64,000 nt of DNA from a virus. Positions 1 to 64,000 of the stretch are shown in pieces. The stretch is taken from IMG/VR virus record IMGVR_UViG_3300047322_001237, positions 214,989 through 278,988 of that record; one strand, written 5' to 3'. The position numbers and the translations under genes were made by a program. Under the pieces are notes generated by a model. The model was not told where the DNA came from. It was given only the letters and a program-made list of their open reading frames with translations, and made no database searches. Position 1 is the stretch's first letter. Every line of letters starts with the position of its first letter.

Positions 1-371
1 AGGATTTCGGCGAGCAGCTCTTCCGGGTGCAGATCCATCGCGCAGTGCTGCAGGATGATGCGCGGATCCTGATACGACTCGATCGCGTGAAGTCCGGTGA
101 GCAGCGTGGTCAGGTGACTGACCCGCGCGTCTTCGCTCGGCTCGACACCCATTGCCTTGAGCAAGGTGACGAGAATCTCCCGTGTCGTGTCGTAGATGTG
201 CTGGACGGTCTGACCTTGATCGGTCCCGTCGTCCGTCATCAGGATCTCAACGAAGTCATCTGAATAGTCCGGCAACTGCAGCGCATCGAGTGCCGCGTGT
301 GCTTCTTCAATTGTTTGGGTGAATTCGGGCGAGGCGGCTCCCGCCAGATAGTCCCGCAGAATGTCAATCAT
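1..371 (-). CDS. Hypothetical phage protein, truncated at window edge
   Basis: An open minus-strand frame starts at an ATG at 369-371 and runs without a stop to base 1, so only the N-terminal ~123 residues are visible. It begins MIDILRDYLAGAASPEF and is acidic and helix-prone, with no motif I recognise. It diverges from the gene at 534; the 160-bp gap holds a perfect 15-bp palindrome that may be an operator. Codon use matches the neighbouring phage genes. Function unknown. Confidence 0.6.
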   Translation of the reverse strand, partial: MIDILRDYLAGAASPEFTQTIEEAHAALDALQLPDYSDDFVEILMTDDGTDQGQTVQHIYDTTREILVTLLKAMGVEPSEDARVSHLTTLLTGLHAIESYQDPRIILQHCAMDLHPEELLAEI

Positions 372-395
372 AGATGGCGAGTCCCGCAATAAGAA

Positions 396-410
396 AATAC
401 CGACGGTATT
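396..410. promoter_or_regulatory. Perfect palindrome in divergent intergenic region
   Basis: AATACCGACGGTATT has 7-bp arms around a central A. It lies between the divergent genes starting at 371 (minus) and 534 (plus), a position suited to a shared operator. No matching motif was noticed elsewhere in the window. Role inferred from position only. Confidence 0.35.
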
Positions 411-533
411 AATGCTGTAGCGAAAACCATCGACGCCAACCCGATCTCTTTTTGATCGAGCCAGGGAATTTGGAAACGGTCAAATAATGGATCGCAGAAA
501 CAGTACAACTAACTTTCTCAGGATGTTTCACTC

Positions 534-1313
534 ATGACCAAGAAGAGCCAAGCGCGCATTCAGCGCGACATCGCAGAAGGCAAGCGCAAGCCGGCCATGC
601 GTTCGGTAAACATGGCAATGAACCAGCCGATCAAGCCGACGCAGAAGGCTGATGGCTCGTTCTCGATGTCCGCAGCAGATCGCATTCTCGCCGAATGCCG
701 GACCGGCGCTAACACCAACAAGGAAGCGAACACCTGCTGGAACGACCTGATCGGCGTCTATCAGCAGATGTCGGGCATGCTGCTTCGTCACACCGACATC
801 TCGTTGGTCTTGAACGACGCCGACCTGATGTCCTTCATCGAAGACAAGGACACGTTCAAGACCAACGTCCGTCAGTTCGCGAGCGACCTGCGCCAGTTGA
901 GCGACGAGCTGCAACAGCTGCGCGCGCTGCACAACGGCAAGACGGGCGGCAGCGATGATCCGGAAGAAGTGCTGCACTCGATCCACATCTTCGAGCAGTA
1001 CAACCTGTGGATGACGAAGCACGACGGCGTGCTCATGCCGACGGTCTACCACATCCTTGAAGCGACGAATCAGGCTGAACTCGCTCGCGGTCGGGCTCGC
1101 GCCGCAGACGGTCAACTCAACGGCGATGCACCGGAACTCGCAGTCGATCCCGCTGTGCTCGACGTGAACCAGATCACCGACGTCACCTTCAACGACGACA
1201 ACGTGGGCCAAGTCGTCGGCGTGCCGGATACGAAGGGACTCGTCGAAGCAGCGGTCGAATCTGGTCTCGCAGCCGAGAAGGCCGGTCGCGAAGGCAACTT
1301 CGAAATCGTCTAA
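534..1313 (+). CDS. Hypothetical phage protein, 259 aa
   Basis: The ATG at 534 follows TCTCAGGATG, a weak Shine-Dalgarno match. The N-terminal ~25 residues are strongly basic, followed by a helical middle (a LxxL-rich heptad-like stretch around residues 120-150) and an acidic C-terminal third. No catalytic motif or membrane segment is visible. It is first in a plus-strand run with the 1341 gene 27 bases downstream, so the two are probably co-transcribed. I do not recognise the family; the basic N-terminus could bind nucleic acid, but that is a guess. Confidence 0.6.
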   Translation: MTKKSQARIQRDIAEGKRKPAMRSVNMAMNQPIKPTQKADGSFSMSAADRILAECRTGANTNKEANTCWNDLIGVYQQMSGMLLRHTDISLVLNDADLMSFIEDKDTFKTNVRQFASDLRQLSDELQQLRALHNGKTGGSDDPEEVLHSIHIFEQYNLWMTKHDGVLMPTVYHILEATNQAELARGRARAADGQLNGDAPELAVDPAVLDVNQITDVTFNDDNVGQVVGVPDTKGLVEAAVESGLAAEKAGREGNFEIV

Positions 1314-1340
1314 GTCTCCATTCAAGAAAGAGAGGTTGTT

Positions 1341-2930
1341 GTGAGTGGTCACAAAGAACATCCGGTGAACGCGTCGTTCACTCAGCATCTGGAAGCGCAG
1401 CAAGGTTCGGACGTCGTTCCGCCGGTCGAGACCCAAAGCGCGCCCGTCCTCGGCATGGACACGATCGAGACCGAATATCAGGAACCGGCAGGCTCGCTCG
1501 CTGAATCGAAACCGGAAGAGCCGGAAATCGCCGGCATCGGTCATTTGCCCGAGTCGACAACCGCCCAGCAGGACGCTGAAGTGTTCTTCCCGCTCGACGG
1601 CGAATGGGACACCAACGGCACGTTCCTGATCGGCCAGGCCGACACGCAAGATCGTGCATCCCGCGCCATTGCCGCCATGCCGAATCTGGATCTGACAGAT
1701 ACGGAAAGCGGTCGCGAGTGGGTGGACTACATGCGTGAAAGCATGGTCAGCGCACCCAACAAGGATCAGTGGCGTGCCACGGTCGATCGTGAAGCCAGCG
1801 AATGGCGTCAGGGCGTGAAGTCCGAGCGCGGCAATATCGCGATGGGTGCGATGTCGTTCAAGAACGTCGGTGGCGAACTTCTCACTGGCGAGAAGGCAGT
1901 GTTGCAAGTCCGTGCGCTATTGGGCCTGGGAAGTACCATCCAGGTTCCGCTGTGGCACTCAGGCTTCCACATCACCGTCAAGGCGCCGTCGGAAATCGCG
2001 CTGCTCGAACTCAACCGTCGCTTGATGGACGAGAAGATCGTCATGGGTCGCACGACCAACGGTCTGGCTTTCGCGAATACGTCGTCTTATCTCAGCGGCG
2101 GGTTGCTCGACTTCGCCATGGAACACGTGTACGACACGTCGCTCCAGGAGAAGGACATGAATCGCATCAAGTCGATGATCGAAACACCCGATTTGCCCTT
2201 GCTGTTCTGGGGTCTCGCCTGCGCCATCTGGCCGCGCGGTTTCCAATACGCTCGTCCGTACCTCGATCCGATCACGAACGAGGAAAAGATGCTGCGCGAG
2301 AAGCTCGCGGTTGGCAAGCTGCTCTGGGTCGACACCAAGGCACTCACGCCGTGGCAGATCGCGCACATGGCCCATCGCGGCAGCGGCACGATGACTGCGG
2401 ACGCGGTTAAGCGCTACAAGACCGAGTTCACGCTCGGTCAGGCGCGTCGCGTCCAGTTGTCGGAGCATATCGCGGTGACGCTCAAGGTGCCGGCGGCCAA
2501 CGACTACGTGCTCTCGGGTTATAAGTGGATCAGCGAGATCACGCGCGTGGTCGATGAAGCGTTCCAATTGCCTCCGGAAGATCAGCGTCGCACCAACTTC
2601 ATCATCCAGCACGGCAAGGCCACCAACATGCGCCAGTACATCCACTGGGTTGCTGAGGTTCATCCGGGTGCCGCCACGATCACGGATCGCGAAACCATCG
2701 AGAAGATCATCGATGACCTGTCGAGCAACGACGAGGTGCGTCGCAAGTACTTCGACGAGGTCAAGAAATACATCGATGATTCGACGATGGCCGTCATCGC
2801 AACGCCGACGGCGAACACGAAGGAAGAGAAGGAGCTGCCGCGCTTCCCGCATCTGTTGCCGATGAATGTCGAGCAGACTTTTTTTACCCTGCTCGAACAG
2901 AAAATCAGCCAGATCTCCCTCCGGAACTAA
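1341..2930 (+). CDS. Hypothetical phage protein, 529 aa in frame 0; probable -1 frameshift near its 3' end
   Basis: Starts at GTG 1341 behind AAGAGAGGTTGTT, a good Shine-Dalgarno. The first ~95 residues are acidic and low-complexity, the rest folded-looking. The zero-frame product ends 16 residues after a run of seven T (2879-2885), on a poor-looking tail ending SQISLRN. In the -1 frame the reading continues open from the same T run into the 119-residue frame that ends at 3358, with no nearby start until ATG 2999. A fused product would be about 672 residues. Either programmed -1 slippage on T TTT TTT or a homopolymer-length error explains this. The family is unrecognised; a virion or early protein is possible. 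Confidence 0.65.
   Translation: MSGHKEHPVNASFTQHLEAQQGSDVVPPVETQSAPVLGMDTIETEYQEPAGSLAESKPEEPEIAGIGHLPESTTAQQDAEVFFPLDGEWDTNGTFLIGQADTQDRASRAIAAMPNLDLTDTESGREWVDYMRESMVSAPNKDQWRATVDREASEWRQGVKSERGNIAMGAMSFKNVGGELLTGEKAVLQVRALLGLGSTIQVPLWHSGFHITVKAPSEIALLELNRRLMDEKIVMGRTTNGLAFANTSSYLSGGLLDFAMEHVYDTSLQEKDMNRIKSMIETPDLPLLFWGLACAIWPRGFQYARPYLDPITNEEKMLREKLAVGKLLWVDTKALTPWQIAHMAHRGSGTMTADAVKRYKTEFTLGQARRVQLSEHIAVTLKVPAANDYVLSGYKWISEITRVVDEAFQLPPEDQRRTNFIIQHGKATNMRQYIHWVAEVHPGAATITDRETIEKIIDDLSSNDEVRRKYFDEVKKYIDDSTMAVIATPTANTKEEKELPRFPHLLPMNVEQTFFTLLEQKISQISLRN
2879..2885 (+). promoter_or_regulatory. Candidate -1 ribosomal slippery heptamer
   Basis: The zero-frame codons ACT TTT TTT ACC contain the heptamer T TTT TTT. 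This matches the X XXY YYZ geometry for -1 slippage: both tRNA-Phe anticodons re-pair exactly. Immediately downstream is a GC-rich stretch (2930-2970) that could form a stimulatory structure, although I could not define one. An artefactual homopolymer length is the alternative. Confidence 0.45.
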
Positions 2931-2998
2931 GACCGCGGCACGTCGCGCAGCCGGACTTTGGCGAGCACGTCAAGGACGAGAATCCACTGAAGGCCGCA

Positions 2999-3358
2999 AT
3001 GGAGCGCGGTCCCGTAGTGCTCAACTCCTCCGACGTGCAGCTGGCGCTGCGCGACTGCTACGAAACCGCGTACCACATCTACGACCATTCGCGATCCGGG
3101 CCGAACGACACGCTCGCGCTGGTCGCAATGCGGGATGCGGAAGATAGTTCGTCGGGTGGTCTTCTGTACGAGCAGATTCGGCGATTCGAAGAGCGGCAAG
3201 TCTACAAGCACTTCGGTCTGAACCTGGTCCAGTTCCTTGAGCTGCCGTCAGACATCGTGCGGTTCGTTCTGGAAATGTCGCTCAAGCGTCAGCAGAACAC
3301 CGCGAAGACGCAGGAAGACGTGGTGGATGAAATCCAGCGTATGGCGGAGGGACAATGA
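2999..3358 (+). CDS. C-terminal extension of the upstream gene (-1 frame) or separate 119-aa protein
   Basis: The ATG at 2999 gives a 119-residue acidic/basic mixed protein, but the same frame is open back past 2879 and upstream codons encode a natural-looking sequence (PDLPPELRPRHVAQPDFGEH) with no Shine-Dalgarno before the ATG. That favours translation as an extension of the 1341 gene. The middle has the pattern YETAYHIYDHSR and an LELPSDIVRFVLEMSL helix. The stop overlaps the ATG of the macro-domain gene (ATGA), so expression is coupled. Function unknown. Confidence 0.55.
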   Translation: MERGPVVLNSSDVQLALRDCYETAYHIYDHSRSGPNDTLALVAMRDAEDSSSGGLLYEQIRRFEERQVYKHFGLNLVQFLELPSDIVRFVLEMSLKRQQNTAKTQEDVVDEIQRMAEGQ

Positions 3359-3801
3359 TCGAGCAGGTTGCAGTGCAAGACATTTTCACTTCTGCCTGTC
3401 AGGCGCTGATTGTGCCGGTGAACGTAGTGGGTACAATGGGCAAGGGTTTGGCGAAAGCCTTCGCTCAGCGGTATCCAGGACTCGAAGCAGCGTATCGAGA
3501 TGCGTGTCGCCGGCGAGTGTTTTCAAACCACGGGCTGTTTGTCTGGGAAGCAGGGGACGGGAAACTGATCGTCTGCTTTCCCACCAAGCGTCACTGGGCT
3601 AACCCATCTCGACTTCCATGGATCGACGAAGGTCTAAAACGACTGGCGCGCGACTTCGAAAAGTATCAGATCCGGTCTATCGCGATGCCGATGATCGGAT
3701 GCGGTGAGGGTGGTCTACGTTGGGATGACGTCTATCCCTTGATCGTGGAATGGCTCGAACCGGTGGAACTGCGAGTGCGAGTATGTCTATCGCCGCGGTG
3801 A
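3355..3801 (+). CDS. Macro-domain protein, DarG/TARG1-like ADP-ribosyl hydrolase candidate
   Basis: A stand-alone 148-residue macro domain. NVVGTMGKG (residues 23-31) is the ADP-ribose-binding loop, FPTKRHWANPS (75-85) is the segment typical of DarG/TARG1-type macro domains, and MIGCGEGGLRW (113-123) is the second phosphate loop. DarG removes ADP-ribose from thymidine in DNA, and related macro domains deacylate or hydrolyse ADP-ribose. No DarT toxin is adjacent and the DarG C-terminal domain is absent. The gene overlaps the preceding stop by 4 bases and is followed by a hairpin terminator. A role reversing host ADP-ribosylation defence is plausible but inferred. Confidence 0.8.
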   Translation: MIEQVAVQDIFTSACQALIVPVNVVGTMGKGLAKAFAQRYPGLEAAYRDACRRRVFSNHGLFVWEAGDGKLIVCFPTKRHWANPSRLPWIDEGLKRLARDFEKYQIRSIAMPMIGCGEGGLRWDDVYPLIVEWLEPVELRVRVCLSPR

Positions 3802-3827
3802 AACCAAAAAAGAAGGAAGGTCATATC

Positions 3828-3847
3828 GGGAGGGCACGAGCCCTCCC
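3828..3847. terminator. Hairpin with TTTATGCCG tail
   Basis: An 8-bp stem GGGAGGGC/GCCCTCCC with loop ACGA is followed by TTTATGCCGTC. It lies between the convergent macro-domain gene and the 56-aa minus-strand gene. It belongs to the recurrent hairpin plus TTATGCCG family found between units across the window. Confidence 0.75.
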
Positions 3848-3870
3848 TTTATGCCGTCTTCTCTTTTTCA

Positions 3871-4041
3871 TTACTTCATTGCCACGACTGCACGCTGCGA
3901 TGCCATGTCGTGACCGACGTGGTCCGCAACCACGAGGCTAAGGCCACCGAGGATGAAGAACATCGTGATCAGGAAGGCGCGCTTCGTCGCACCCTTGTTT
4001 GCTTTGCCCGAGTGGTAGTTGTTGTTTGCAAAGTCGATCAT
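3871..4041 (-). CDS. Small membrane protein, 56 aa
   Basis: An ATG at 4039-4041, preceded on the minus strand by CGGAGCGAATC, opens a 56-residue frame ending TAA at 3871. It begins MIDFANNNYHSGKANKGATK, then a single hydrophobic helix (about residues 23-39, FLITMFFILGGLSLVV), then a polar tail. A possible promoter variant (ACATATGAC) lies ~55 bases upstream. The family is unrecognised; topology suggests a single-pass inner-membrane microprotein. Confidence 0.6.
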   Translation of the reverse strand: MIDFANNNYHSGKANKGATKRAFLITMFFILGGLSLVVADHVGHDMASQRAVVAMK

Positions 4042-4173: not shown

Positions 4174-4500
4174 ATGGCAAGGCAACCTCGCGCGACACTC
4201 GAACAACTACGCGAACGACTGGCGACGGTGCAGGAACAAATCGCCAAGGAAGAGGAGAAGCGGCGCACGACGGCGCTTGAGGAGATTCATTCGCTGATGT
4301 TTCAGCACGGACTCACGCCGACTGACATCGAAGCGAAAGGGAAACGAGGGCCGGCGAAGAAGCAATCGAAAGCTGCTTCAAAGACGACGGTCGCGCCGAA
4401 GTATCAGGATCCGAAGACGGGCGCGACGTGGAGCGGTCGCGGTCGCGAACCGCTGTGGATCAAGGGCAAAAAGCGCGAAAAGTTTTTGATCGCGAAGTAA
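4174..4500 (+). CDS. H-NS family nucleoid-associated protein
   Basis: The 108-residue protein starting at ATG 4174 (Shine-Dalgarno CAGGAG) has the usual H-NS layout: an N-terminal coiled-coil oligomerisation region (residues ~8-45), a basic linker of K/A/T residues, and a C-terminal DNA-binding domain with KYQDPKTGATWSGRGREP, the hallmark of Burkholderia-type H-NS proteins. An extended -10 (TGCTACAAT) precedes it. H-NS homologues silence AT-rich foreign DNA; on plasmids they reduce fitness cost. Carriage on a phage replicon suggests silencing of phage or competitor genes, or stealth maintenance in the host (inference). Confidence 0.9.
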   Translation: MARQPRATLEQLRERLATVQEQIAKEEEKRRTTALEEIHSLMFQHGLTPTDIEAKGKRGPAKKQSKAASKTTVAPKYQDPKTGATWSGRGREPLWIKGKKREKFLIAK

Positions 4501-7034: not shown

Positions 7035-7676
7035 GTGAGCCTGCCGATAATCGAGCCGGGCGACATGATGCACGGCGTGCGAGTACGCGCGCCCTTCTCT
7101 CGCGATGGCTGGATCTTTGAGATCAAATACGACGGGTATCGCGCCTTTATCCGCAAGCAAGCTGACCGCGTCGAACTTCTATCTCGCCACGGCACGGTCA
7201 TGAATGCAGTCTTTCCGGACATCATCGAGGCCGTTAGCGCGGTGCCCGGAAACTTCATTTGGGACGCCGAGCTCACGGTCGACGAGAGTAACGGACGTTC
7301 TTCGTTCGAGGGCCTTCAACAGCGAGGGCGCTTACGCGTTCCGATGCGTGTCCGTGCAGCCGCGCGCGAGCGCCCTGCCCGTCTCTACGTCTTCGATATC
7401 CTCGCCTCCGAAGATGACGACCTACGACAACTCCCGCTCGACCAACGAAAGGAAATCCTCAGAGACACGTTCGATGACAACTCGGTGCTGATCTACGCAG
7501 GGGGAATCATCGGCGCCGGTGAATGGGTCTTCGAGCAGGCGCAGAAACTCGACCTCGAGGGCGTCATGGCGAAACGCCTCGACTCGCTCTACGTGGCGGG
7601 TCGCTCCCATGCATGGCAGAAGGTCAAGAACCTAGACTACAGCCGCCCTGCTGCTCTCGGTATCGGTCGCCGGTAA
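7035..7676 (+). CDS. ATP-dependent DNA ligase, minimal LigD-type adenylation domain
   Basis: A 213-residue nucleotidyltransferase domain. Motif I is EIKYDGYR with adenylated Lys31; WDAEL is motif III, YVFDIL motif IIIa, EGVMAKR motif IV (~residue 180) and WQKVKN motif V (~199). These match the adenylation domain of LigD/LigC-type bacterial ligases. The C-terminal OB-fold domain usually present is absent, since the frame stops soon after motif V. The start is GTG at 7035. It converges on imuA with 2 bases between stops. A role in nick sealing or end joining of the replicon is possible; activity without an OB domain is uncertain. Confidence 0.8.
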   Translation: MSLPIIEPGDMMHGVRVRAPFSRDGWIFEIKYDGYRAFIRKQADRVELLSRHGTVMNAVFPDIIEAVSAVPGNFIWDAELTVDESNGRSSFEGLQQRGRLRVPMRVRAAARERPARLYVFDILASEDDDLRQLPLDQRKEILRDTFDDNSVLIYAGGIIGAGEWVFEQAQKLDLEGVMAKRLDSLYVAGRSHAWQKVKNLDYSRPAALGIGRR

Positions 7677-7678
7677 CA

Positions 7679-8392
7679 CTACGCGCCGGTCGCCGCGAGG
7701 ATCGATTGCATCGCCGTTGGCGCAAGCGTCCTCGCAGGCTTGCTGGAACGTCCATAGGGACTGAGCAAGATCGGCGACGGCTTCAGTGCTAAATCGAAAG
7801 GCTCGACACCGATGGGACCTTTTCGCTTCACGATGTTGACCGAGACGCCGTCGGCTGCTGGCCGGATGGCGAGTCGCAGCGACGCGGGCGATGTGTCCTG
7901 CTGCACGGCAAGCGGACGGAAAACGAAAAACAGCATCTCCGACGACTGCGAGACCAGTAACAGACGCCGCAGCGATTCGGGACGCATGTGCTGCTGCCAC
8001 AGTAAGACCGCCCCGCATGTATTCGCCTTCAGTATCTGCTCAGTCGACCAGAGCACGTCCGCCGTCTTTTCGACCTCCAGCCGAATCAACTTCTCCGGCG
8101 GAACGCCGATATACGCGAGTCCCTGGACGTTCGGAACATGTGGCGGTTTGATTAATACAACAGGCCGTTTCGCCACCGTGGTCAGCGCCGGCTGCAACAT
8201 GCGCACTTCGCCGATCCCTGGCTGTTGGACTAGCAGTTCGACCAAGGTGCCAATCGGCCACCCCCCGCCAGGCAATTCCGCCGATAGCCGGTCGTAGCCG
8301 GTGTCGACCGTGCGCCCTGCCCTTCTTGCCAACTGGTTACCGCGCCAGAGGGACGGGTGGATTTCTTCAATGTCCTTGGGAAGTGCTGACAT
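7679..8392 (-). CDS. imuA: ImuA-like translesion synthesis-associated protein
   Basis: The ATG at 8392 gives 237 residues. The signature LPGGGWPIGTLVELLVQQPG and the following GEVRMLQPAL match the N-terminus of ImuA, a RecA/SulA-like SOS protein that works with ImuB and DnaE2 in mutagenic translesion synthesis. A perfect LexA box lies 16 bases upstream. The usual partners imuB and dnaE2 are not in the window; downstream is the convergent ligase gene. It is therefore an orphan: either a remnant of a host-derived cassette or a protein that modulates host ImuB/DnaE2 or RecA. Codon use is similar to host genes. Confidence 0.8.
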   Translation of the reverse strand: MSALPKDIEEIHPSLWRGNQLARRAGRTVDTGYDRLSAELPGGGWPIGTLVELLVQQPGIGEVRMLQPALTTVAKRPVVLIKPPHVPNVQGLAYIGVPPEKLIRLEVEKTADVLWSTEQILKANTCGAVLLWQQHMRPESLRRLLLVSQSSEMLFFVFRPLAVQQDTSPASLRLAIRPAADGVSVNIVKRKGPIGVEPFDLALKPSPILLSPYGRSSKPARTLAPTAMQSILAATGA

Positions 8393-8846: not shown

Positions 8847-8886
8847 ATTCTTCGGTCGAAGGTGATTTTTCGAAAAACCGAAGAAT
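8847..8886. promoter_or_regulatory. Inverted repeat, candidate parA operator
   Basis: ATTCTTCGGT (8847-8856) is repeated inverted as ACCGAAGAAT (8877-8886), with CGAA/TTCG nested inside; TTCGGTCG also occurs at 8831-8838. The element ends 22 bases before the parA GTG. The ParA has the N-terminal DNA-binding region of P1-type ParA proteins that repress their own promoter, so this is the likely autoregulatory operator. Confidence 0.55.
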
Positions 8887-8908: not shown

Positions 8909-10111
8909 GTGAATGCAAGCACTCTGCTCGCCAGCGGCCTGCCGCCGGCGCTTGACTACGCCGCGTCCATGGACACATTGGCTGATGTGTCCGCCCGTGC
9001 CTCGGGTGTTCTAAATCAGATCCGCGATCGGATGCTGGAACCATATCCGCGCAAACGCCCGCCCACGTTCACGAGCGCACAGGTGGCCGGCCTGTGCGGA
9101 CTTGAAAAAATGCGTTTCCAGTATCTGACTACGAAAGGCGATCTCCCCACCGGCACGTCGATTAAAAATGGCAAGAGCAAAGTCTTTACGTTGGAAGAGA
9201 CACTACGGTATATCCGGGCTGTCGGCAATCGCCCGCCGCGACCAGAGAACGCTCCCGGCAAAGTTGTGACGGTGGCCAACTTCAAAGGCGGTGTGGCTAA
9301 GACTACGACGGCCGTCTCGCTCGCTCAGGGACTCACCTTACGCGGTCGTAAGGTTCTCGTTATCGACTGTGATCCCCAAGGCACCGCTACGCAGTTATGC
9401 GGCTTCTCGCCCGAAACGGAAATAGGCGAGGAGATGACGCTCATGCCTTTGATCTACGGCGATGAAACGAGACTGGACTACGCAGTCCAACAAACCTACT
9501 GGCAGGACCTAGACCTGGTCCCGGCGTCTTCCGGTCTCTTTAGCGCTGAGTTTCATATTCCGGGCAAGCTGGCCACCGACCACAAGTTCGAATTCTGGAA
9601 CATCTTGAATCAGGGCCTCGAAGGCCTCAAAGACAAATACGACGCCATCGTCATCGACACTCCGCCATCTCTAAGTTATCTGACGATCAATGCGTTGATG
9701 GCGGCGAACGGACTATTGATGCCCTGCCCGCCCGAGGGGCTCGACTTTGCCAGCTCCACTCAGTTCTGGTTCCTCTTCACCGAAATGTCGAGGCACGTTC
9801 CAGCAATGCGTGAGACGAAAGACTTCGATTTCGTCAATGTCGTGCTCACGAAATCGAAGAGTGACGACCTTTCCGGCGTTGTACGGGGCTGGCTGCAAAA
9901 GGCCTACGGAGATCGAGTCCTTCCGTATGAGATTCCCGACTCCGTCGTCCCGAAGAGCGCATCTGCTCAACTCTCTACCGTCTACGACCTTACCAAGCCC
10001 GAGGGCAGCGTGGCAGCCTACACCCGCTTCAAGGATCCGATGGATCAGTTGGTGAGGCACATCGACTCCCAGTTTGTACAGGCTTGGGCGTCTTCCATGT
10101 TGGAGGTCTAA
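8909..10111 (+). CDS. parA: ParA partition ATPase (type Ia)
   Basis: A 400-residue protein from GTG 8909 (Shine-Dalgarno AAAGGGG). Residues ~50-105 form a helix-turn-helix-like region (SAQVAGLCGLEKMRFQYL, LEETLRYIR) as in large plasmid ParA/SopA proteins that autoregulate. The deviant Walker A KGGVAKTT is at 126-133, VIDCDPQGT at ~151-159 and VIDTPPSLSYL further on. ParA forms nucleoid-bound ATP-dependent patterns that position ParB-parS cargo. The stop TAA overlaps the ATG of parB. The presence of a low-copy plasmid ATPase beside jumbo-phage genes is the main argument for an episomal phase. Confidence 0.93.
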   Translation: MNASTLLASGLPPALDYAASMDTLADVSARASGVLNQIRDRMLEPYPRKRPPTFTSAQVAGLCGLEKMRFQYLTTKGDLPTGTSIKNGKSKVFTLEETLRYIRAVGNRPPRPENAPGKVVTVANFKGGVAKTTTAVSLAQGLTLRGRKVLVIDCDPQGTATQLCGFSPETEIGEEMTLMPLIYGDETRLDYAVQQTYWQDLDLVPASSGLFSAEFHIPGKLATDHKFEFWNILNQGLEGLKDKYDAIVIDTPPSLSYLTINALMAANGLLMPCPPEGLDFASSTQFWFLFTEMSRHVPAMRETKDFDFVNVVLTKSKSDDLSGVVRGWLQKAYGDRVLPYEIPDSVVPKSASAQLSTVYDLTKPEGSVAAYTRFKDPMDQLVRHIDSQFVQAWASSMLEV

Positions 10112-11106
10112 TGCGCGCCGCTCAAAGACTTAGTGAAAAGATTGGTGACATCGACATCCCAGAACCCGGTCAATCGCCGGCGGCCGGTGATCCGTTTCGT
10201 CCAAGGACGGCACCAGGTGGAGCGCTCGCCTTTCAGCATGCAATGCGCGAGAAGCAGGCCGAGCTCGACGCGATGTCCGCACAGCTGGCCGAACTGCAAG
10301 CTCAGAAGCAGACGAACTCGCCCAGCGGCGTCGAGATTCCCCTCGACCAACTGCATGAAGTCGCAGGTCGCAGACGCTACATGCCGCCGGAAAAGTACAA
10401 TGAATTGCGGGAAAACCTGCGGAACAACAAGCTGATTCAGCTGCCCGTCATTCTGCCACGTGCAGAAGGTGGCTTCGAAATACAGTCGGGACATCACCGG
10501 ATCGACGCTTATCGGGAACTCGGGCGTTCGACCATTCGCTGTGTTCTGGGTGACGCGACGGGCGATGAAGCTGACGACGGCGCGTTCTGGGCCAATCTGA
10601 TGCAGTCGGACCTGACTGACTATGAGAAGTACGTTGGACTGACGCGCGTACATTCGAAACATCCGGAATTGGGCCAAGTCGAGCTAGGCGAGCTCGTCGG
10701 CATTAGCACTTCCCACCTCAACGCCCTGCTCTCTTTCGGTCGTTTGCCTGAGCAGGCCCGCGCGATTCTCGATACCAATAAGGCGATCATGGGCGCGAAC
10801 GCGGCCGCGGCTTTTGCGGCTATCGCGGAGGCCGGCAAGGCGGAGCGGGTTGTGGAAGCGGTACGACGTCTCTCCGAGCGGGAGCTAGATCAGGCGCAGG
10901 CGGTGAAGTTTGCAAAAGCCGTTGAGACGCCCAAGGCAACGAAGCCGGCTGCTGAGTCGTACAAGGTGAAGACCGGAAAGAGTACGTGGTGCGATGTGCG
11001 CAAGACGAAAAACATCATGCGCATCGAGTTCCAGTCCGAAGAGGTGGCCAATGCCGTCCAAGAAGCCATCAAGCAAACCCTCGAGGCGCTCGCCGCAAAG
11101 TCCTAA
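10111..11106 (+). CDS. parB: ParB partition DNA-binding protein
   Basis: The ATG at 10111 overlaps parA's TAA by one base, with GGAGG upstream; the protein is 331 residues. Residues ~40-70 are a coiled coil, 75-140 the ParB N-terminal nuclease-like fold with IQSGHHRIDAYRELG (GHHR replaces the common GERR box II), and ~185-215 the helix-turn-helix (GQVELGELVGISTSHLNALLSFGR). The C-terminal ~50 residues are a basic dimerisation region. It binds parS and is moved by ParA. A hairpin at 11181-11213 closes the operon. Confidence 0.93.
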   Translation: MRAAQRLSEKIGDIDIPEPGQSPAAGDPFRPRTAPGGALAFQHAMREKQAELDAMSAQLAELQAQKQTNSPSGVEIPLDQLHEVAGRRRYMPPEKYNELRENLRNNKLIQLPVILPRAEGGFEIQSGHHRIDAYRELGRSTIRCVLGDATGDEADDGAFWANLMQSDLTDYEKYVGLTRVHSKHPELGQVELGELVGISTSHLNALLSFGRLPEQARAILDTNKAIMGANAAAAFAAIAEAGKAERVVEAVRRLSERELDQAQAVKFAKAVETPKATKPAAESYKVKTGKSTWCDVRKTKNIMRIEFQSEEVANAVQEAIKQTLEALAAKS

Positions 11107-11170: not shown

Positions 11171-11266
11171 GCTAGAAACACGAAGGCCCCCAGCTGGAAA
11201 CTGAGGGCCTTCGCATAAGTGGGCTTGGCTGGAAACCGTCGCTCACTACACTCCCAAGCTGGAAAC
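11171..11266 (+). repeat. GCTGGAAAC direct repeats, iteron candidates
   Basis: GCTGGAAAC occurs exactly at 11193-11201, 11228-11236 and 11258-11266, with a one-mismatch copy GCTAGAAAC at 11171-11179. All are on the plus strand just upstream of the Rep-like gene. The last copy is inside CCAAG...CTTGG. Spacings (22, 35, 30) are not helically regular, which weakens the iteron reading. The location between parB and rep fits a plasmid origin or rep control region. Confidence 0.4.
11181..11213. terminator. Hairpin after parB
   Basis: CGAAGGCCC (11181-11189) pairs with GGGCCTTCG (11205-11213). There is no T-run, so it may terminate weakly or protect the transcript end. One of the GCTGGAAAC repeats lies in its loop. 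Confidence 0.55.
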
Positions 11267-11357
11267 TTGGAAGGGTACTTCGTCAACCCCGAGTGTAGCG
11301 AATAGCGATCGACAGTCAAGCAAATTCAATCCATTTTTGAGAAATGGACCGCTCGAC

Positions 11358-12446
11358 ATGTCTATCGCGCAACAGCTCGTTGCTGGCGAGGGTGAAACAC
11401 ACCCCGACGATTCAGCAGCCCTCACCGCTTTCCGGTGTGACTCGACAAACCTGCCTTGGGTCATCTTCCGGGCTGCGTTCCGTGCAGCACACATTGAGGA
11501 GATCCCTCCTCGCGCACGTGCGGTTCTTTCCGCCCTCGCCCGCACCGTCGACGCCGCCAAGCCGTTCGCCGCGATCTTCGCTCGTCGTGAACTGCTCACA
11601 GGACGCGCACTGCAATCCATGCGCACCTTCTACCGCAGCCTCGATGACTTGGAGTCCGCCGGTCTAATCGATCGCCGCGCTCAATCCCGCTACGTTGAAG
11701 CCGGTCTCTTCGGTCGTGCCTACATCCACCTCACCGCGCGAGCAGCCGAGCTTCTAGGGCTCGTTGAGTCGATGCAACCGCCCTCACCTGAGCCCGTCGA
11801 ATCTTCGCTTCCGCATCCGTCTGCCAACTTGGCAGACGGTGGAATATATAAGGATCTAAGCCCTTCTGTTTTTCAAAAGAGACAACCGGGGCAAGTGCCT
11901 GAGGATCTCCAGCGTCTGCGGTCCCTGGGTTTTTTTGATTTCTTGATTTTCAAACTCATGCGGGAAGCGCGTGAGCATGGCAAACGTCTCTCGGATGTCG
12001 TGGAAGCAACATGGGACCACCTGAAGCTCGCCAAAGCCCCAATCAACTACCTGCGGAGTCTGCTGCGGGGAACGGTTGATTTCGCTCACCAACTGCGCGC
12101 CAGGATTAACGTCAAAGCCGAGGAGCAGGCTCGGGTGAAGCGCACCTTGGAAGCCGATCAGGTAGCCCGTCAAAGCGCCGGCAAAACGTTCCTAGACGCC
12201 TCGGGGGCACGCAAGTACGTGATCGATGCCGACGGCGAGAACATGGTCGTCTACAACCGTGACGAAGGCATTGGTCGACAAGCCGCGGGTTGGAAAGAAG
12301 GTTTTGCTGCAGCGCTCGCTCGAGGTCAGATCCGTGCGGCGAGCAGCTACGTGCAGCCGGAGCAGGGCAGGGAACGTCCGCCAGTTACAGCACAGGTTCG
12401 GGAACACATCGCGGGACTGCGCAGCCTGCTGGGAGCTCGTCGCTAG
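11358..12446 (+). CDS. Plasmid replication initiator-like protein
   Basis: The ATG at 11358 gives 362 residues; a TTG seven codons earlier is an alternative. Residues ~45-135 look like a winged-helix domain (ARAVLSALARTVDAA, FARRELLTGRALQSMRTFYRSLDDLESAGLI), as in plasmid and phage initiator proteins. The middle is proline/serine-rich, followed by a helical basic C-terminal region. It follows parA-parB and sits beside GCTGGAAAC repeats, the expected place for a rep gene. It is assigned as Rep from fold pattern and context; an unrelated transcriptional regulator is the alternative. Confidence 0.65.
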   Translation: MSIAQQLVAGEGETHPDDSAALTAFRCDSTNLPWVIFRAAFRAAHIEEIPPRARAVLSALARTVDAAKPFAAIFARRELLTGRALQSMRTFYRSLDDLESAGLIDRRAQSRYVEAGLFGRAYIHLTARAAELLGLVESMQPPSPEPVESSLPHPSANLADGGIYKDLSPSVFQKRQPGQVPEDLQRLRSLGFFDFLIFKLMREAREHGKRLSDVVEATWDHLKLAKAPINYLRSLLRGTVDFAHQLRARINVKAEEQARVKRTLEADQVARQSAGKTFLDASGARKYVIDADGENMVVYNRDEGIGRQAAGWKEGFAAALARGQIRAASSYVQPEQGRERPPVTAQVREHIAGLRSLLGARR

Positions 12447-13437: not shown

Positions 13438-13968
13438 TCAGTCGAAGCTATAACGCACGACTTCCTTGAGCGGGAGAATGCCGATCATCTTGCCGGACCC
13501 GCAACCCGCTACCTCGCGAAAGAGGCGCACGTAGTTGGTGTCGATGTCCTCTTCCTCGCACCATGCGAAAAAGGAGATTGGATCGATCAGGCCAACGTTG
13601 CGCTCAGACGTCCGCCATTCGCTCAGATCGCGACGGACACGATGAGCGAGCGTACTGCCGATCGAGATCTTGCGACCGTCGAACGTGGTGAGTTCATCCA
13701 TAGCGTCCAGACTGCCTTCCACAGGAAGCACGCCATTGATCAAGCAGCAAGCCATGAGGCCCGACCAGACTTTTAGCTTTAAGTAGCGAGCGACCAACAG
13801 AATTTGATCGGCTGCAGATTGCACGTTATCAATACGCGCAACTGAAACGGACGGAACGAGTACGACACCTTTTGCGTCCGTCGTTTTTTCTGCAAGGTAT
13901 TCGCGAAGTTCGACGAACGCCCGTTGGTTTGCGGCGAGGCTGTCCTCGCCAAATGAAGAATGGCCCAT
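13438..13968 (-). CDS. Hypothetical phage protein, 176 aa
   Basis: Starts at ATG 13968. The protein is soluble, mixed alpha/beta, with VVLVPSVSVARIDNVQSAADQ early and an acidic WCEEEDIDTNYVRLF segment near residue 140. No family recognised. It lies 12 bases downstream of the 106-aa gene at 13981-14301 and is probably expressed from the same promoter at 14406. The operon ends at the hairpin at 13392. Confidence 0.6.
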   Translation of the reverse strand: MGHSSFGEDSLAANQRAFVELREYLAEKTTDAKGVVLVPSVSVARIDNVQSAADQILLVARYLKLKVWSGLMACCLINGVLPVEGSLDAMDELTTFDGRKISIGSTLAHRVRRDLSEWRTSERNVGLIDPISFFAWCEEEDIDTNYVRLFREVAGCGSGKMIGILPLKEVVRYSFD

Positions 13969-52063: not shown

Positions 52064-52696
52064 TTACTTGCTTGCCGTCGGGACCAGCTCGAGCGTGAGC
52101 GTGAAGCCCAGTGCGTCGACGAGTTGATAGAGGCGGTCAACCGTCAGTGCCTGACGCCCGGTCTCGATCTCGCTGATGGTCGACGGCGCCAGGGACGTCT
52201 TCGCAGCCAGTTGCGATTGCGTGAGGCGCGCCGTGACACGCAGTTCGCGCAGCGTGCGGCCGACGTCCTTGCAGCTCATCGAAATTTCACGGACCGCCGA
52301 CTTCACGACCTTCTTCTTTGCGAATGCATCCTTCGCGACCTTGCGACGCTTCACGTTCGCGCCGGCGACACCGCGCTTTGCAACCGCGTCAGCGATCTTG
52401 GCCGGCGTGTTCGCTTCCGGCACGGCTGGTGCGGCCGCGGCGGCGGTGGTTGCCGGCTTTGCGACGAGATCCTTGAACGCGGCGTTCGCATCGGCCGTCT
52501 TCTGGGAGAGCGACTGCTTCGCGGCGGGCTTCTTGGCTGTGACTGTCTTCGCGACCGGCTGCTTCACGGCGACGCTGGCTTTCGCCGGCTTCGCGACGGT
52601 CTTCTTCACAGGTGCCGTCACCGGAGCCGGTGCGGTCTTGACTGCTGCCGGTGCCTTCGCGACAACTGCGGTCTTCGTGGTTTTCTTCGTGGCCAT
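52064..52696 (-). CDS. Histone H1-like tail fused to an XRE-family HTH domain, 210 aa
   Basis: ATG 52696. Residues 1-~140 are lysine/alanine/proline/threonine-rich (MATKKTTKTAVVAKAPAAV, KKPAAKQSLSQKTADANAAF, VKRRKVAKDAFAKKKVV), like bacterial histone H1-like proteins. Residues ~145-205 are a typical XRE/Cro helix-turn-helix (LRELRVTARLTQSQLAAKTS, SEIETGRQALTVDRLYQLVD). The combination suggests a DNA-compacting tail with sequence-specific targeting. It might act on the phage genome or on host promoters; the HTH resembles HipB-type regulators. Middle of a three-gene run. Confidence 0.85.
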   Translation of the reverse strand: MATKKTTKTAVVAKAPAAVKTAPAPVTAPVKKTVAKPAKASVAVKQPVAKTVTAKKPAAKQSLSQKTADANAAFKDLVAKPATTAAAAAPAVPEANTPAKIADAVAKRGVAGANVKRRKVAKDAFAKKKVVKSAVREISMSCKDVGRTLRELRVTARLTQSQLAAKTSLAPSTISEIETGRQALTVDRLYQLVDALGFTLTLELVPTASK

Positions 52697-58872: not shown

Positions 58873-61119
58873 TTATGCCGCCCTGAGGAAGCGGCGCTCG
58901 TATGCATTCATCGACATCGTCGGTGGACTGTCGCTGAAATGCCCGTGCAGGTTGTTGTAGTGCATCGGCATGTTCCGCCTGTTCGAGACACCGTCACGCA
59001 TGCGCTCGCGCTTCTTCTCCCGTGCGTTGTTGAGGAGCGTATCCAAACTGAAGATCTCACCCTGTTCCAACACGAGCTTGCGATCCAGCATGCGCAGTTG
59101 ATGTTCGAGGCGTTGCGAAATCCACTCGTTCGACTCCTTCGACAGCTGCTCGTAGAGGATCTCGATCTGCTCGCGGACCTGCTGCTGTTCCTGACGCGTT
59201 TGACGATCGATGATCTGCTCTTCCGTCGCCCCGCCCAACGCTGCGCCGATACGACGCTGGTCAATGCCGTAGAACGACAGCATCTTGCCTTTCGTCAGCA
59301 GCCAGTTGCTCAGCAGCCAGCCGATGACCATGTCGTCGTGTCCTCCCGCCGGGTGGTCGATACGACCGTTCTTCGATACCAGCGAGGTGATCTGATCGAT
59401 AAGCGTCTTGTCGTAGACGGCATGACAGCCGCGCTTGGCTGCGAGCTGGAGCGATTCGGAGTAGAGCAAGGTGCGCGACGTTGCGCCCATGCCGCCCGAG
59501 GTCGTGAAGCCAAACATCTTCTTGTAACGCACGTAGATGTCTGCCGGACGACGGCCCATCGGAACCTGGATCTCCTTGAAGCGATCCGGCATCTCGTCAT
59601 AATCCTGAACGACCTTATTGAACAGGCGCTCGAACGGATCGACTCCCATGGTCGGCAGCATCAGCAACAGATAGTCGAGCACCGTCGCGCCTGTGCTTCG
59701 ACGCTCGATGTTCGCCGTGAAGTTCGGGAAGCGGACAAACCAGGTGCAGAGCCATTCGCAGAAGGTGATGATGTTCGTCTCATTGAACGTCCCGGCCGCC
59801 ACCGTTTCCAGTGTCTCGATGTCTTCGAGATAGAGCGAGATGTCGTCGCCACCCGACGCCTCGGACGTATCCATGCCCATCACGAAACGGCCTTCGGCCA
59901 TGCGCTGCTCGATCTCCTCTTCCTCGATGTACCAGCGCGTGACGTAACCTTGCGGACTGATCTCCGTGTGCTTCACATCCTGCACGCTAGCGGTGATCTG
60001 CTTGAGGATCGCCGTCGGCAGCGGGTTGGTCAGCGAGCCGGCTGTCCACATGTTGAAGTAGTCTCGGTTTGCGTCGTCGCCGCTAGCCGTCGATGCTTCC
60101 AGCTTTTCGCGCAGCCACGCATCCGTTTTACCGAGCTGGCGATGGTTGAGGGTGATGTTCACGCGGTAGACGCCACCGCCTTCGCCGCGCGATGCTTTAC
60201 GAACCATGGATTCCAGCTCTTCCTGGTCCCGTGCATCAAAGAACTTTTCCGTCCACACAGCCGCTGCTTGCAGCAGTCCGTAGATGAACGATCCGTCCTT
60301 GTCGTCGATCTTGCCGGCCGTCGTCGTGAAGATCGTGCCGTAGTCGCCACCGTTCGCCTTCACCTTATCCACTGCCGCACCGGTTGCAGCAAGCGCCGAA
60401 CCGACCGCGATCTTGACGTTGGGCTGGAAGGGCGACTCGTCGATGTGCATGATCGGCGAGGTCAGACCGCGGCCGAGCTTGTACGCACCTTTCTCAGACG
60501 CCTGCGGCACGTGCGTCTTGTAGATGTTACCCATCGAGTTGATGGTGATGGCTTCGGTGTTGTTCGTGTCGACCTTCGGGTTTCGCTGGATTAGGTATGG
60601 CGGCAGCTCATCGATACACTTCTTCAGACGGTCGATGTTGGTCTTGCGAAGGATTTCGTCCTTCGTCAACAAGTTGATTTCCGTGTTCTGGCAGCGGAAG
60701 TTCATCAGCAGCGTCATCAACAAGTCGGTCGAGAGCGACTTACCCGTCTGACGAATCTGAATCAGGAACGTCATGACGTGGTTGAAGAAACACCAGAACA
60801 GCGCCACGTTGCCGCGGTTTGCTTCGAAAGGCGTCGAGCCACCGCCACCGATCGGCGGGACCCGCGCGATTTCGCGCATGAAATACCAGCAGTTGTTCTT
60901 GATCTCGACTGCGATGGCAGCCATTTCCTCGATGGTCAGATCAGGAGCGAATGGATCAACGCCCTGGAGCGCCGGGTTCAGGAGCGCGAGGCAAAAGGCG
61001 TTGTTTTTGATGCCCATCTTCCGATAGACAGAGGCCAGTCGGACGTAGCTTTGATTGCTGGTTCTTGTATCGATGATGGCGTTTGGATATTTGAGCCAGT
61101 CTTGTTCGAAGAGAATCAT
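58873..61119 (-). CDS. Large terminase subunit
   Basis: ATG 61119 (GAGAAAGAAA upstream), 748 residues. ATPase: Walker A RQTGKS (123-128), Walker B IMHIDE (223-228) and coupling motif TTTAG (~258). Nuclease: GMDTSEASGGDD (~430) and GGHDDMVIG (~590) supply acidic metal ligands of the RNase H-like fold. The C-terminal ~150 residues are a long Q/E-rich coiled coil. Length matches phiKZ gp25-type terminases. It packages the genome into procapsids docked on the phage nucleus. Adjacent virion genes follow upstream on the same strand. Confidence 0.93.
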   Translation of the reverse strand: MILFEQDWLKYPNAIIDTRTSNQSYVRLASVYRKMGIKNNAFCLALLNPALQGVDPFAPDLTIEEMAAIAVEIKNNCWYFMREIARVPPIGGGGSTPFEANRGNVALFWCFFNHVMTFLIQIRQTGKSLSTDLLMTLLMNFRCQNTEINLLTKDEILRKTNIDRLKKCIDELPPYLIQRNPKVDTNNTEAITINSMGNIYKTHVPQASEKGAYKLGRGLTSPIMHIDESPFQPNVKIAVGSALAATGAAVDKVKANGGDYGTIFTTTAGKIDDKDGSFIYGLLQAAAVWTEKFFDARDQEELESMVRKASRGEGGGVYRVNITLNHRQLGKTDAWLREKLEASTASGDDANRDYFNMWTAGSLTNPLPTAILKQITASVQDVKHTEISPQGYVTRWYIEEEEIEQRMAEGRFVMGMDTSEASGGDDISLYLEDIETLETVAAGTFNETNIITFCEWLCTWFVRFPNFTANIERRSTGATVLDYLLLMLPTMGVDPFERLFNKVVQDYDEMPDRFKEIQVPMGRRPADIYVRYKKMFGFTTSGGMGATSRTLLYSESLQLAAKRGCHAVYDKTLIDQITSLVSKNGRIDHPAGGHDDMVIGWLLSNWLLTKGKMLSFYGIDQRRIGAALGGATEEQIIDRQTRQEQQQVREQIEILYEQLSKESNEWISQRLEHQLRMLDRKLVLEQGEIFSLDTLLNNAREKKRERMRDGVSNRRNMPMHYNNLHGHFSDSPPTMSMNAYERRFLRAA

Positions 61120-61196
61120 TTTCTTTCTCGATGAACGACAACATGCCGTCCATCCCGCCCTCCCTTGTTTGGAAGGCGGGACAGACGACAGGTTGA

Positions 61197-62888
61197 TCAG
61201 TTCTGTTGTATTACGGGGATACCCGCGATGGAGAGTTGAAGGTCGTTTGCGCTGGTGCGCAGGAAGAACGTTACGAACAACGTGCTGTGGTTGGCGATCG
61301 GCACTGTGGACGTCTGAGACGAGTTCCACTGCGAGAGCAGACAGATGATCGGCGAGCTGCCGTCCGGCATCTGAATCGCGAAGTGCGTCGGCACCGGCAG
61401 GCTCGCTTCCTGGGCGAGATCGGTGAGCGGCAGGGTGTTGTAGTAGAACGCCTGCAACCAGTCCGCCTGCGATGCGTAGCCGCTCGTCAGGTTGATGGTG
61501 TAGTTGTTCGCTGCCAACATCGTGGTCGCTGCGAAGTTGCCCGGACCGAACGGCGGCTGCTGGCCCGGCTCGAACTGGACTTCCCACGGCGAGGTCTGCG
61601 TGCCCGGTGCGAGCAGCGTGATGGACACGGTCGAGGTGAACAGGTAGTTCGTGAAGCCCGCGTCGACCTTGTTCAACTGGACCTGACCTTCGATGTTCTG
61701 CTGGATGCCGTAGCCCAGCGGCTGGAAGGCAGGCGAGGCCGGCGAGAACGTAACCAGACTCGTGACATCCCACCAGCTGCTGCGATCGAGTTCGTACAGA
61801 TACCACTGCAGGCGGTAGCCGCTCACCGCGTCGATCCAGACCGGGAACGCGAAGAGCTTGAGCGTGTAGTCGCCGTCTTCGTTGATCGTGACCGCGCTGT
61901 ACTTGGACGTGATGAACTTGGAGTTGTTGACCGAGTTCGCGCCGTACACCGCCTCGTCCGAGGACAGGTTGTACTTGAGCACGAGGTCGAACTTCTCGCC
62001 CACCACCGTCGAGACGAAGCTGTCGAAGCCGAAGATTTGGAACTTGGTCCCGTCCACCGGCAGCGTCGCCGACGAGCCGTCGCTGTACTGCACCACGCCC
62101 ATCAGGTTCAGACCCGAGAGCAGGACGTTCACTGGGAACTGGATGAGCGTCGGATCGGACGTCGCCAAGAACGGGGAAAGCAGCTGGATGCCCGTCACGT
62201 ACTTCACGCCCGTGTCCGCCAGGCGGATGAACGAGGTGTTCTCGATCAGGAGTTGACGCTTCGAGACGACCATGCCGGAGCTCGAATACGCTACCGCAGT
62301 CACCGGGGTGCCGTCGGCAACCTGCACATTCGTGTAGCAGACGGGCACGGTCATCACCGAACCGGTCGAGCCGTCCGGGAAGGTTACGGTCTTGGGCGTC
62401 GTCGGGATCGCTTGATTGAGCAACTTGCCCGACTGATCGTAAAGCGCCGAGATGCAGTTGTTGTTGTCCGAGAAGTCCGAGCCCGTGAAGATCTTCACTG
62501 ACGCGGCTTCATCGCCCGGGAACCACAGACGTGCATCCACCGCCAGCGAATACGGAATCACGCTCGTGTCCAGATAGACGCGATAGGTATCAGCCTGGGT
62601 GCCCGGTCCGACACCCTGGAGCAGGTCGCCAGAGGTCATCACGGCATTGGGCGCCGTGGTGAGCGCCACCAGCGTCGGGATGTAGGTCACCGGATCGACG
62701 ATCGCCACGCGATACCAGTCGTTGGTCGTGTAGTCGCAGACGTAGTCATTGACCTTCGGGATATACATGTTGCTGCCGGACTGGCCCTGATAGACGGACT
62801 GAAGCGCCCAGATCTGCCACAGCCCATTCGGGTTGTAGATCGGGACGCCTCCGTCGGTGCCGGTCGGCAGGTTGACTGCGTCAGCCAT
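61197..62888 (-). CDS. Virion structural protein candidate, 563 aa
   Basis: ATG 62888 with GGAGTCGTCA upstream (an in-frame ATG at 62900 is less well placed). Beta-rich throughout with T/V/S/N-rich strands and repeated Ig-like character (GLWQIWALQSVYQGQSGSNM, YRVYLDTSVIPYSLAVDARL, LSIAGIPVIQQN at the end). Such composition is typical of tail or decoration proteins. Placed just upstream of terminase, as virion genes are in phiKZ. Confidence 0.65.
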   Translation of the reverse strand: MADAVNLPTGTDGGVPIYNPNGLWQIWALQSVYQGQSGSNMYIPKVNDYVCDYTTNDWYRVAIVDPVTYIPTLVALTTAPNAVMTSGDLLQGVGPGTQADTYRVYLDTSVIPYSLAVDARLWFPGDEAASVKIFTGSDFSDNNNCISALYDQSGKLLNQAIPTTPKTVTFPDGSTGSVMTVPVCYTNVQVADGTPVTAVAYSSSGMVVSKRQLLIENTSFIRLADTGVKYVTGIQLLSPFLATSDPTLIQFPVNVLLSGLNLMGVVQYSDGSSATLPVDGTKFQIFGFDSFVSTVVGEKFDLVLKYNLSSDEAVYGANSVNNSKFITSKYSAVTINEDGDYTLKLFAFPVWIDAVSGYRLQWYLYELDRSSWWDVTSLVTFSPASPAFQPLGYGIQQNIEGQVQLNKVDAGFTNYLFTSTVSITLLAPGTQTSPWEVQFEPGQQPPFGPGNFAATTMLAANNYTINLTSGYASQADWLQAFYYNTLPLTDLAQEASLPVPTHFAIQMPDGSSPIICLLSQWNSSQTSTVPIANHSTLFVTFFLRTSANDLQLSIAGIPVIQQN

Positions 62889-62912
62889 TGACGACTCCAA
62901 AGAGGGAAAGAA

Positions 62913-64000
62913 TTAGCTGCTGCTGATCGCGCTGGCGCTGTTGATGCTGGCGATCGAGACGAAGTTGTTTAGCTGCACCAGACCGTTCAGGTAGATGCGG
63001 ATGACGTGATTCAGGAAGTTGTAGGCGTACAGGTCGAGCGAGATCGTGACCGTCAGGTTGTGCGGACGGATCGTGACGAAGTTCGAATCGGGTTGGTTCG
63101 CCGGTTGCGTCGGGTCGTACGCCAGCAAGTACTCGTACGGTGCGCAGACTTGCTTCACATACGCGTCGTTGTAGAACTGCTTCAACGGCGTTTCGTCGAT
63201 GATGCCGAGAAGAAGGTCGTAGATGATCTTGCAGCAGAACGGACTGAAAATCGGATACAGCGCCGTGATCGTGTCCGGCCCACTCGCCTTGGGGAGCGGA
63301 TAGTACAAGGTCATGTAATCTTCCACGGCCTTGTCGATAGCAACCGCCTTGTCCAAATACTCGTACGTGTCTTCGTTGGTCACGCCAAGCATCGGCACCA
63401 CCACCTTCTCGATTTGGTACGGCAGGCCGTTGATGGTTTGCGGTCCCAGCACATCCGCCGAGTTCTCTGCGAACTTAAGCGCGGTCTTCGGAAAGACACC
63501 ACCGCCCATGACGATCCGGGTTACGTCGTCGTCCCGGATGTTGTAGCGGTTGTTGTTCGAGAGTAGACCGTACTGCACCCAGCCCGTTTCGCGGTAGCTG
63601 CGTTGCGTCAGGTCGCTGTTGCAGAATCCGCTCCATCGGATCGTGATCTGCTGCTGCTTGTCCTGAGGGAAGTCAAGCGCCGTAAGGTTGTTGATCATGA
63701 TCGTCGGAAACTGCATGACGTAGTCGAGATCCTGAATCATCGACCGGCCATTCACGAACACGTCGAGCTGTCCCATCGGAATCTGCATTGCGAAGAGCTG
63801 CAACACGTAGTTCCGGATACCTTCCTGCTGGATCTGGATCGGCAGGTAGCCTTCCTGCGGCTGGATGTACAGGGTGTAGGCGAGCATCACCTTATTGCTT
63901 CGCACGCACGTGTAGACCTTCGTCGGGTCCGTCGACCAAGTGAGCAGCGTCCCCACGACCGAGTACTGACTGCTGTCGGTCACGTCTTCCCAGGCATAGG
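62913..64000 (-). CDS. Virion structural protein candidate, truncated at window edge
   Basis: The frame stays open to base 64000 (upstream codons read YAWEDVTDSSQYSV), so the true start lies outside; at least 362 residues are visible. Beta-rich, with aromatic and Q/N-rich strands (YTLYIQPQEGYLPIQIQQEG, LDVFVNGRSMIQDLDYVMQF) and a C-terminal VTISLDLYAYNFLNHVIRIY. Co-directional with the 563-aa gene 24 bases away. Probably a tail or head component. Confidence 0.65.
   Translation of the reverse strand, partial: YAWEDVTDSSQYSVVGTLLTWSTDPTKVYTCVRSNKVMLAYTLYIQPQEGYLPIQIQQEGIRNYVLQLFAMQIPMGQLDVFVNGRSMIQDLDYVMQFPTIMINNLTALDFPQDKQQQITIRWSGFCNSDLTQRSYRETGWVQYGLLSNNNRYNIRDDDVTRIVMGGGVFPKTALKFAENSADVLGPQTINGLPYQIEKVVVPMLGVTNEDTYEYLDKAVAIDKAVEDYMTLYYPLPKASGPDTITALYPIFSPFCCKIIYDLLLGIIDETPLKQFYNDAYVKQVCAPYEYLLAYDPTQPANQPDSNFVTIRPHNLTVTISLDLYAYNFLNHVIRIYLNGLVQLNNFVSIASINSASAISSS

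Follow-up and report, generated by a model that had tools for sequence, protein, structure and literature searches.

Nucleus-forming phages are regarded as lytic and are candidates for therapy. Phage-plasmids such as P1, N15 and phiKO2 join a phage genome to plasmid replication and partition genes. Here we analysed the terminal 64 kb (64,000 nucleotides, positions 214,989-278,988; hereafter the window) of the 278,988-bp virus contig IMGVR_UViG_3300047322_001237, in which parA, parB and rep genes lie inside a genome of nucleus-phage type. The window shares this combination with the phage-plasmids, and its ParA is ~32% identical to those of N15 and phiKO2. However, the latter phages and P1 are much smaller and temperate, whereas the window comes from a nucleus-forming jumbo phage whose replicon differs from theirs and in which no repressor system is recognised.

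The genome resembles the Chimalliviridae in its chimallin, PhuZ, split multisubunit RNA polymerases (RNAPs), divergent DNA polymerase and phiKZ capsid and tail proteins. The nearest isolated phage found is Burkholderia glumae phage FLC9 (LC667451, 321,833 bp), with a DNA polymerase 58% identical to that of the window. Unlike the window, FLC9, FLC6, LucasX, SNUABM_54 and PhiPA3 lack a ParA of the module's type, as do ten outgroup contigs. The same parA-parB-rep order occurs on plasmids and megaplasmids of the ParAB-'Replication protein O' type in Burkholderiaceae, for example those of Caballeronia sp. M1242, C. grimmiae (p3) and Paraburkholderia phytofirmans (pOLGA2), with ParA 41-67% and Rep 53-72% identical. 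A Caballeronia megaplasmid also has the inverted repeat upstream of parA and the rep leader in common with it. In contrast to these plasmids, the window's replicon is located inside a ~280-kb phage genome of virulent type.

Jumbo phages are taken to be lytic or pseudolysogenic in a 2021 survey of 224 of them, in which ParB goes unmentioned (PMC7824862). The bacterial assembly-associated lytic phages (BAPS) are likewise whole, unintegrated nucleus-phage genomes, for which a carrier-like state was proposed; however, partition or replicon genes are not mentioned there, whereas the window encodes a candidate persistence mechanism (PMC12768965). In the literature searched, which did not extend to subscription papers and preprints, no plasmid replicon had been described for a nucleus-forming phage, nor were the Chimalliviridae recorded there as phage-plasmids; priority is uncertain. 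Whether nucleus phages can persist is a question reopened by the 2025 report of assembly-associated nucleus phages without a mechanism. Because the replicon consists of testable genes and occurs in isolates available from collections, the question becomes directly testable, and a further one is raised, namely how a second, plasmid-like state would be controlled by a phage whose DNA is hidden within a shell of protein. If the reading favoured below is true, nucleus-forming viruses of this clade may also live quietly in cells as plasmids.

The replicon and the genome that carries it

ParA, ParB and Rep are encoded consecutively on the + strand and make up a complete replicon at ~8.9-12.4 kb of the window, accompanied by two elements with plasmid counterparts:

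8847-8886 (arms 8847-8856 and 8877-8886), unstranded: inverted repeat 5' of parA, candidate ParA operator (sequence comparison)
8909-10111, +: parA, Walker-type ParA ATPase with a KGGVAKTT motif and an N-terminal extension (PF13614, 2e-37)
10111-11106, +: parB, with GRRR and SGHHR motifs and a helix-turn-helix (HTH); its start overlaps the parA stop (phrog_4715, 1e-14)
11313-11360, +: rep leader box (AGTCAAGC...AATGGACCGCTCGACATG), common to Caballeronia plasmids (alignment)
11358-12446, +: rep, initiator of the plasmid 'Replication protein O' family, 362 aa (plasmid matches, alignment)

ParA matched TIGR03453 at 3e-63, under the curated cut-off of that model, and is 66-67% identical to the ParA of Caballeronia megaplasmids, in which the gene order is likewise parA-parB-'replication protein O'. 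A ParB profile matched ParB/Noc structures at 1e-19. For rep, the ATG at 11358 is the better start and gives the 362-aa product. Rep matched 100 PLSDB plasmids, all of them from Burkholderiales, with a top identity of 66-67%, and had no match among 50,697 phage records. A search of the PDB with Rep at E<=0.001 returned nothing, and its predicted model is poor (pLDDT 66). Gene order, homologous proteins and leader elements together identify the module as a genuine plasmid-type replicon of the Burkholderiaceae, in agreement with the initial annotation, which had been made from the letters of the window and had called a ParA-ParB-Rep replicon. The operator proposed there is retained as a candidate: the inverted repeat before parA is also present in three phage relatives (L016, L017, L022) and in a Caballeronia plasmid (L014).

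The window further encodes the genes expected of a nucleus-forming phage:

16710-18701 and 18753-21002, -: two split RNAP subunit genes (phrog_3015, 2e-188; phrog_3295, 1e-228)
31557-33086, -: third RNAP subunit (phrog_2987, 3e-145)
33525-35492, -: chimallin, the nuclear shell protein (phrog_4795, 6e-100; PDB chimallin, 1e-37)
40355-42523, -: divergent family B DNA polymerase, phiKZ-type (phrog_2927, PF20286)
49226-50224, -: PhuZ tubulin (phrog_4733, 2e-92; PDB PHIKZ039, 3e-27)
58873-61119, -: large terminase, phiKZ-type (profile or sequence search)
63874-64000, +: 3' terminal 127 bases of the contig, matching its first 127 bases

Profile and sequence searches thus bore out the nucleus-type genes that had been recognised in the initial annotation. 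Gene modelling of the whole contig gave 277 genes, which include, outside the window, a phiKZ capsid protein, tail sheath and tube, vertex proteins and further (virion) RNAP subunits. The contig therefore has the phiKZ-type capsid, tail and divergent DNA polymerase (PF25620, phrog_3242, PF20286) and the split genes for multisubunit virion and non-virion RNAPs by which Chimalliviridae are recognised, and its virion and packaging gene set is complete. By gene content it is a nucleus-type (phiKZ-like, Chimalliviridae) jumbo phage. The same 127 bases stand at both of its termini, the pattern that short-read assemblers leave for closed molecules.

Conservation, selection and exchange of the module

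Relatives were found by searching with the RNAP neighbour gene in isolate-genome contigs and IMG/VR contigs. Three came from isolates of soil bacteria: Caballeronia arationis LMG 29324, Paraburkholderia sp. BCC1886 and P. adhaesiva ZD32-2. The surroundings of the module, by which the site was compared, are as follows:

534-4041, unstranded: left phage flank with g217, g218 (phrog_4585), g219 (phrog_12109), a macro-domain protein and g220 (phage families)
4042-13437, unstranded: insert, approximate limits, missing from outgroup nucleus phages (comparison with outgroups)
13438-16643, -: right phage flank with g230, g231, g232 and helicase g233 (profile matches, conserved order)

The par-rep module is present at the identical site, beside the helicase and RNAP genes, in five related contigs (L016, L017, L021, L022, L024). 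Two of these are full-length contigs of 284-286 kb from Paraburkholderia isolate assemblies. That of BCC1886 (286,074 bp) has identical ends overlapping by 125 bp and is collinear with the window's contig throughout, with 197 of the 277 genes in common, and the closure points of the two contigs fall at different places. The P. adhaesiva ZD32-2 contig (284,264 bp) has 143 of the 277 genes in common. The site is empty in outgroups: in L026, the blocks g218-g219-macro-g220 and g230-g231-g232-g233 are adjacent, with ~1.2 kb between g220 and g230, and in L023, L029, L131 and L132 the macro gene adjoins g233 and the module is missing. The left-flank order is maintained in the outgroup phages. Since the module is bordered by phage genes left and right, in the window as in each relative, and recurs at one site in all five relatives, an assembly chimera is excluded, as had been argued from the window by itself. 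The sequence result that the initial annotation named as refuting it, a module absent from close relatives and lacking phage genes on one side, was accordingly not obtained. In C. arationis, the phage contigs break at both sides of the module. Its contig C145 was considered as the continuation of this phage and rejected, since it does not overlap exactly and contains g230 a second time.

ParA, ParB and Rep are intact and under purifying selection, with dN/dS of 0.055/1.28, 0.097/1.92 and 0.119/0.87, respectively, all far under 1. Their histories differ from that of the phage genome. The window and L024 are 95% identical in RNAP and just 43% in ParA, whereas the window and P. adhaesiva are 90% identical in ParA and just 64% in RNAP. 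The RNAP tree groups the window with the soil contig L024 and C. arationis; the ParA tree pairs the window with P. adhaesiva (100/100) and BCC1886 with a C. arationis replicon (100/100). The conflict has full support and indicates that ParAB alleles were swapped between phage lineages, the evidence being L024 against the window and P. adhaesiva against IMG2852743531, where ParA is far closer than RNAP at silent sites. We do not claim a recent ParA transfer between the window and P. adhaesiva, because four-fold sites are near saturation there (0.47, against 0.42 in RNAP).

Such swaps fit plasmid incompatibility, which would favour ParAB exchange. The C. arationis genome holds at least four replicons whose Rep proteins are 84-91% identical, while identity does not exceed 72% for ParA and 47% for ParB; at least one of them, C323, is free of further phage genes. 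Partition incompatibility would be expected to leave such a pattern, in which a single genome combines nearly identical Rep with ParAB that all differ.

Two side observations concern this exchange. In C. arationis C145 (L095), a complete par-rep module is followed at 9071-10824 by a phage-type g230 and a degenerate second Rep-like stretch, an arrangement that reads as a trace of phage-plasmid exchange. Moreover, a viral contig of 153,706 bp (L123, IMGVR_UViG_3300046463_000548) carries a ParA-ParB-Rep replicon of the window's type (Rep 60%); it has no nucleus-phage DNA polymerase and, within 10 kb, no phage genes in common, and may be a plasmid or a large phage-plasmid of a different kind.

A proposed episomal phase and its alternatives

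An episomal phase is favoured by two findings taken together: relatives occur as full-length, unintegrated contigs in the assemblies of isolates, and the plasmid replicon is conserved. The best reading, and a probable one, is that these nucleus-forming jumbo phages form a clade whose members persist as episomes, partitioned and kept at low copy. A phage lineage would have acquired a plasmid replicon of the Burkholderiaceae, inserted between two of its own genes. During vegetative growth the phage would rely on the polymerases, chimallin shell and PhuZ that it encodes. During quiescence, Rep would replicate the circular genome of ~280 kb from an active origin near parB-rep, while ParA-ParB, acting on a nearby centromere, would segregate it and hold copy number low, making it a phage-plasmid able to return to the lytic cycle. 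Partition incompatibility would then select for exchange of parAB cassettes among phages and plasmids, because many plasmids circulating in these hosts carry relatives of the window's replicon. With somewhat less assurance, we favour the wider view that a whole clade of nucleus phages in the Burkholderiaceae has a true episomal (lysogen-like) phase through the captured replicon and, by incompatibility-driven parAB swapping, belongs to a plasmid compatibility network. Of the episomal persistence suggested in the initial annotation, a contig that closes on itself, unintegrated ~285-kb relatives in the assemblies of two isolates (the ends being identical in one of them) and a plasmid replicon under purifying selection are observed, and from these we infer the inherited phase itself. 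No integrase was present among most contig genes in a Pfam census.

Several findings weigh against this reading, and some of them speak for a strictly lytic or carrier-state phage with no inherited episomal phase, whose isolate contigs would represent persistent infection of the sequenced culture. Lytic nucleus phages without such a replicon are common, unintegrated, in bacterial assemblies, and a carrier state was proposed for them in 2025 (PMC12768965). Enterobacter ludwigii CP134650 is a nucleus phage deposited as a 222-kb circular plasmid, and it has no ParA of the module's type. Because par-less nucleus phages occur in assemblies in this way, occurrence in isolates needs no par, and isolate presence alone proves nothing. 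Isolated relatives such as FLC9, which lacks ParA, are described as biocontrol phages. Circular closure does not discriminate either, being equally expected for permuted linear virion DNA. Nevertheless, a lytic or carrier-state phage leaves unexplained why one clade keeps a complete replicon at one site under purifying selection, and why its par alleles are swapped like those of plasmid incompatibility. We consider this alternative unlikely, although it survives better than the others.

Other observations also count against an episomal phase. There is no convincing conserved repressor; the one candidate switch regulator, a weak one, is the following:

52064-52696, -: 210-aa protein with a C-terminal Cro/CI-type HTH (HTH_31, 1e-12; HTH_3, 8e-12)

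No homolog of it was found in the BCC1886 or P. adhaesiva phages. The module-less L026 nests among carriers, with poor support, which implies that the phage can live without the module. In addition, host frequency is low, with chimallin in 2 of 148 Paraburkholderia and 1 of 58 Caballeronia species genomes and in 0 of 368 other genomes of the class, counts that are small and ascertainment-biased. An enrichment in these hosts (3/206 against 0/368) is weak and biased by the manner in which the clade was found.

It is more doubtful still that the module serves the lytic phase as a weapon or aid, with Rep and ParB/parS displacing or excluding related resident plasmids, or ParA-ParB positioning the genome beside PhuZ. 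The hosts do harbour several plasmids whose Rep and partition genes are close relatives, and ParAB diversity is high; however, Rep, its leader and the ordinary parA-parB-rep order (as in L014, L110, L114 and L115) are kept complete, and exclusion alone needs less. Recent neutral capture, or a plasmid fragment joined to a phage contig by assembly, is highly improbable, since the drop in codon-usage scores over 3.9-14 kb is as expected of acquired DNA but the single site, bordered by phage genes left and right, recurs across independent assemblies, strains and projects, the outgroup site is empty, neutral capture predicts decayed genes rather than purifying selection, and the artefact version is already refuted.

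Hairpins between parB and rep, and neighbouring genes

The gap between parB and rep contains a repeated structure:

11181-11270, +: three hairpins with an identical 7-nt loop, CTGGAAA (core GCTGGAAAC at 11193, 11228 and 11258)

The stems vary in sequence yet remain paired, and no shuffle among 2000 reached this level of a shared-loop triplet (0/2000). Hairpin triplets were also observed in the parB-rep gaps of L016, L017, L021, L022, L114, L115 and C. arationis contigs, in which the 7-nt loop is uniform within a replicon: CTGGAAA in many, CGGCTAA in pOLGA2 and CGCCAA in Caballeronia megaplasmids. No Rfam family was found on the replicon, hairpins included. The triplet looks like a candidate strand-specific element for replication control or a centromere. 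The parS-like repeats of the initial annotation are thus real, but their identity as parS is unproven because the loop tracks neither ParB nor Rep type: CTGGAAA is shared across replicons whose ParBs are 32-60% identical, and the loop of L024 differs although its Rep is 81% identical.

Apart from the replicon, the insert contains unknown genes, a lipoprotein-like gene and the following:

4174-4500, +: H-NS-like protein (PF00816, 4e-13; phrog_10171, 2e-26)
7035-7676, +: ATP-dependent (LigD-type) DNA ligase domain (PF01068, 3e-30)
7812-8297, +: ImuA-like gene (65-68% DNA identity to imuA on Paraburkholderia/Caballeronia plasmids)

Genes similar to the ligase-domain gene are found on Paraburkholderia plasmids, and the ImuA-like gene had no NCBIfam hit. 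The H-NS, ImuA-like and lipoprotein-like genes noted at the outset are present, whereas a role of the H-NS and lipoprotein genes as lysogeny morons is speculation. A DarG-like macro-domain protein (3355-3801, +) adjoins the insertion site and is kept in outgroup nucleus phages. Elsewhere in the window, a small acyl-carrier-type protein with a phosphopantetheine site (48333-48587, -) is kept in the BCC1886 relative. Outside the window, the contig holds at 130-165 kb (g140-g159) a cluster of large, mutually related and internally repeated proteins; three S74 endosialidase-chaperone domains lie in the same region, suggesting that these proteins are probably diversified tail fibres.

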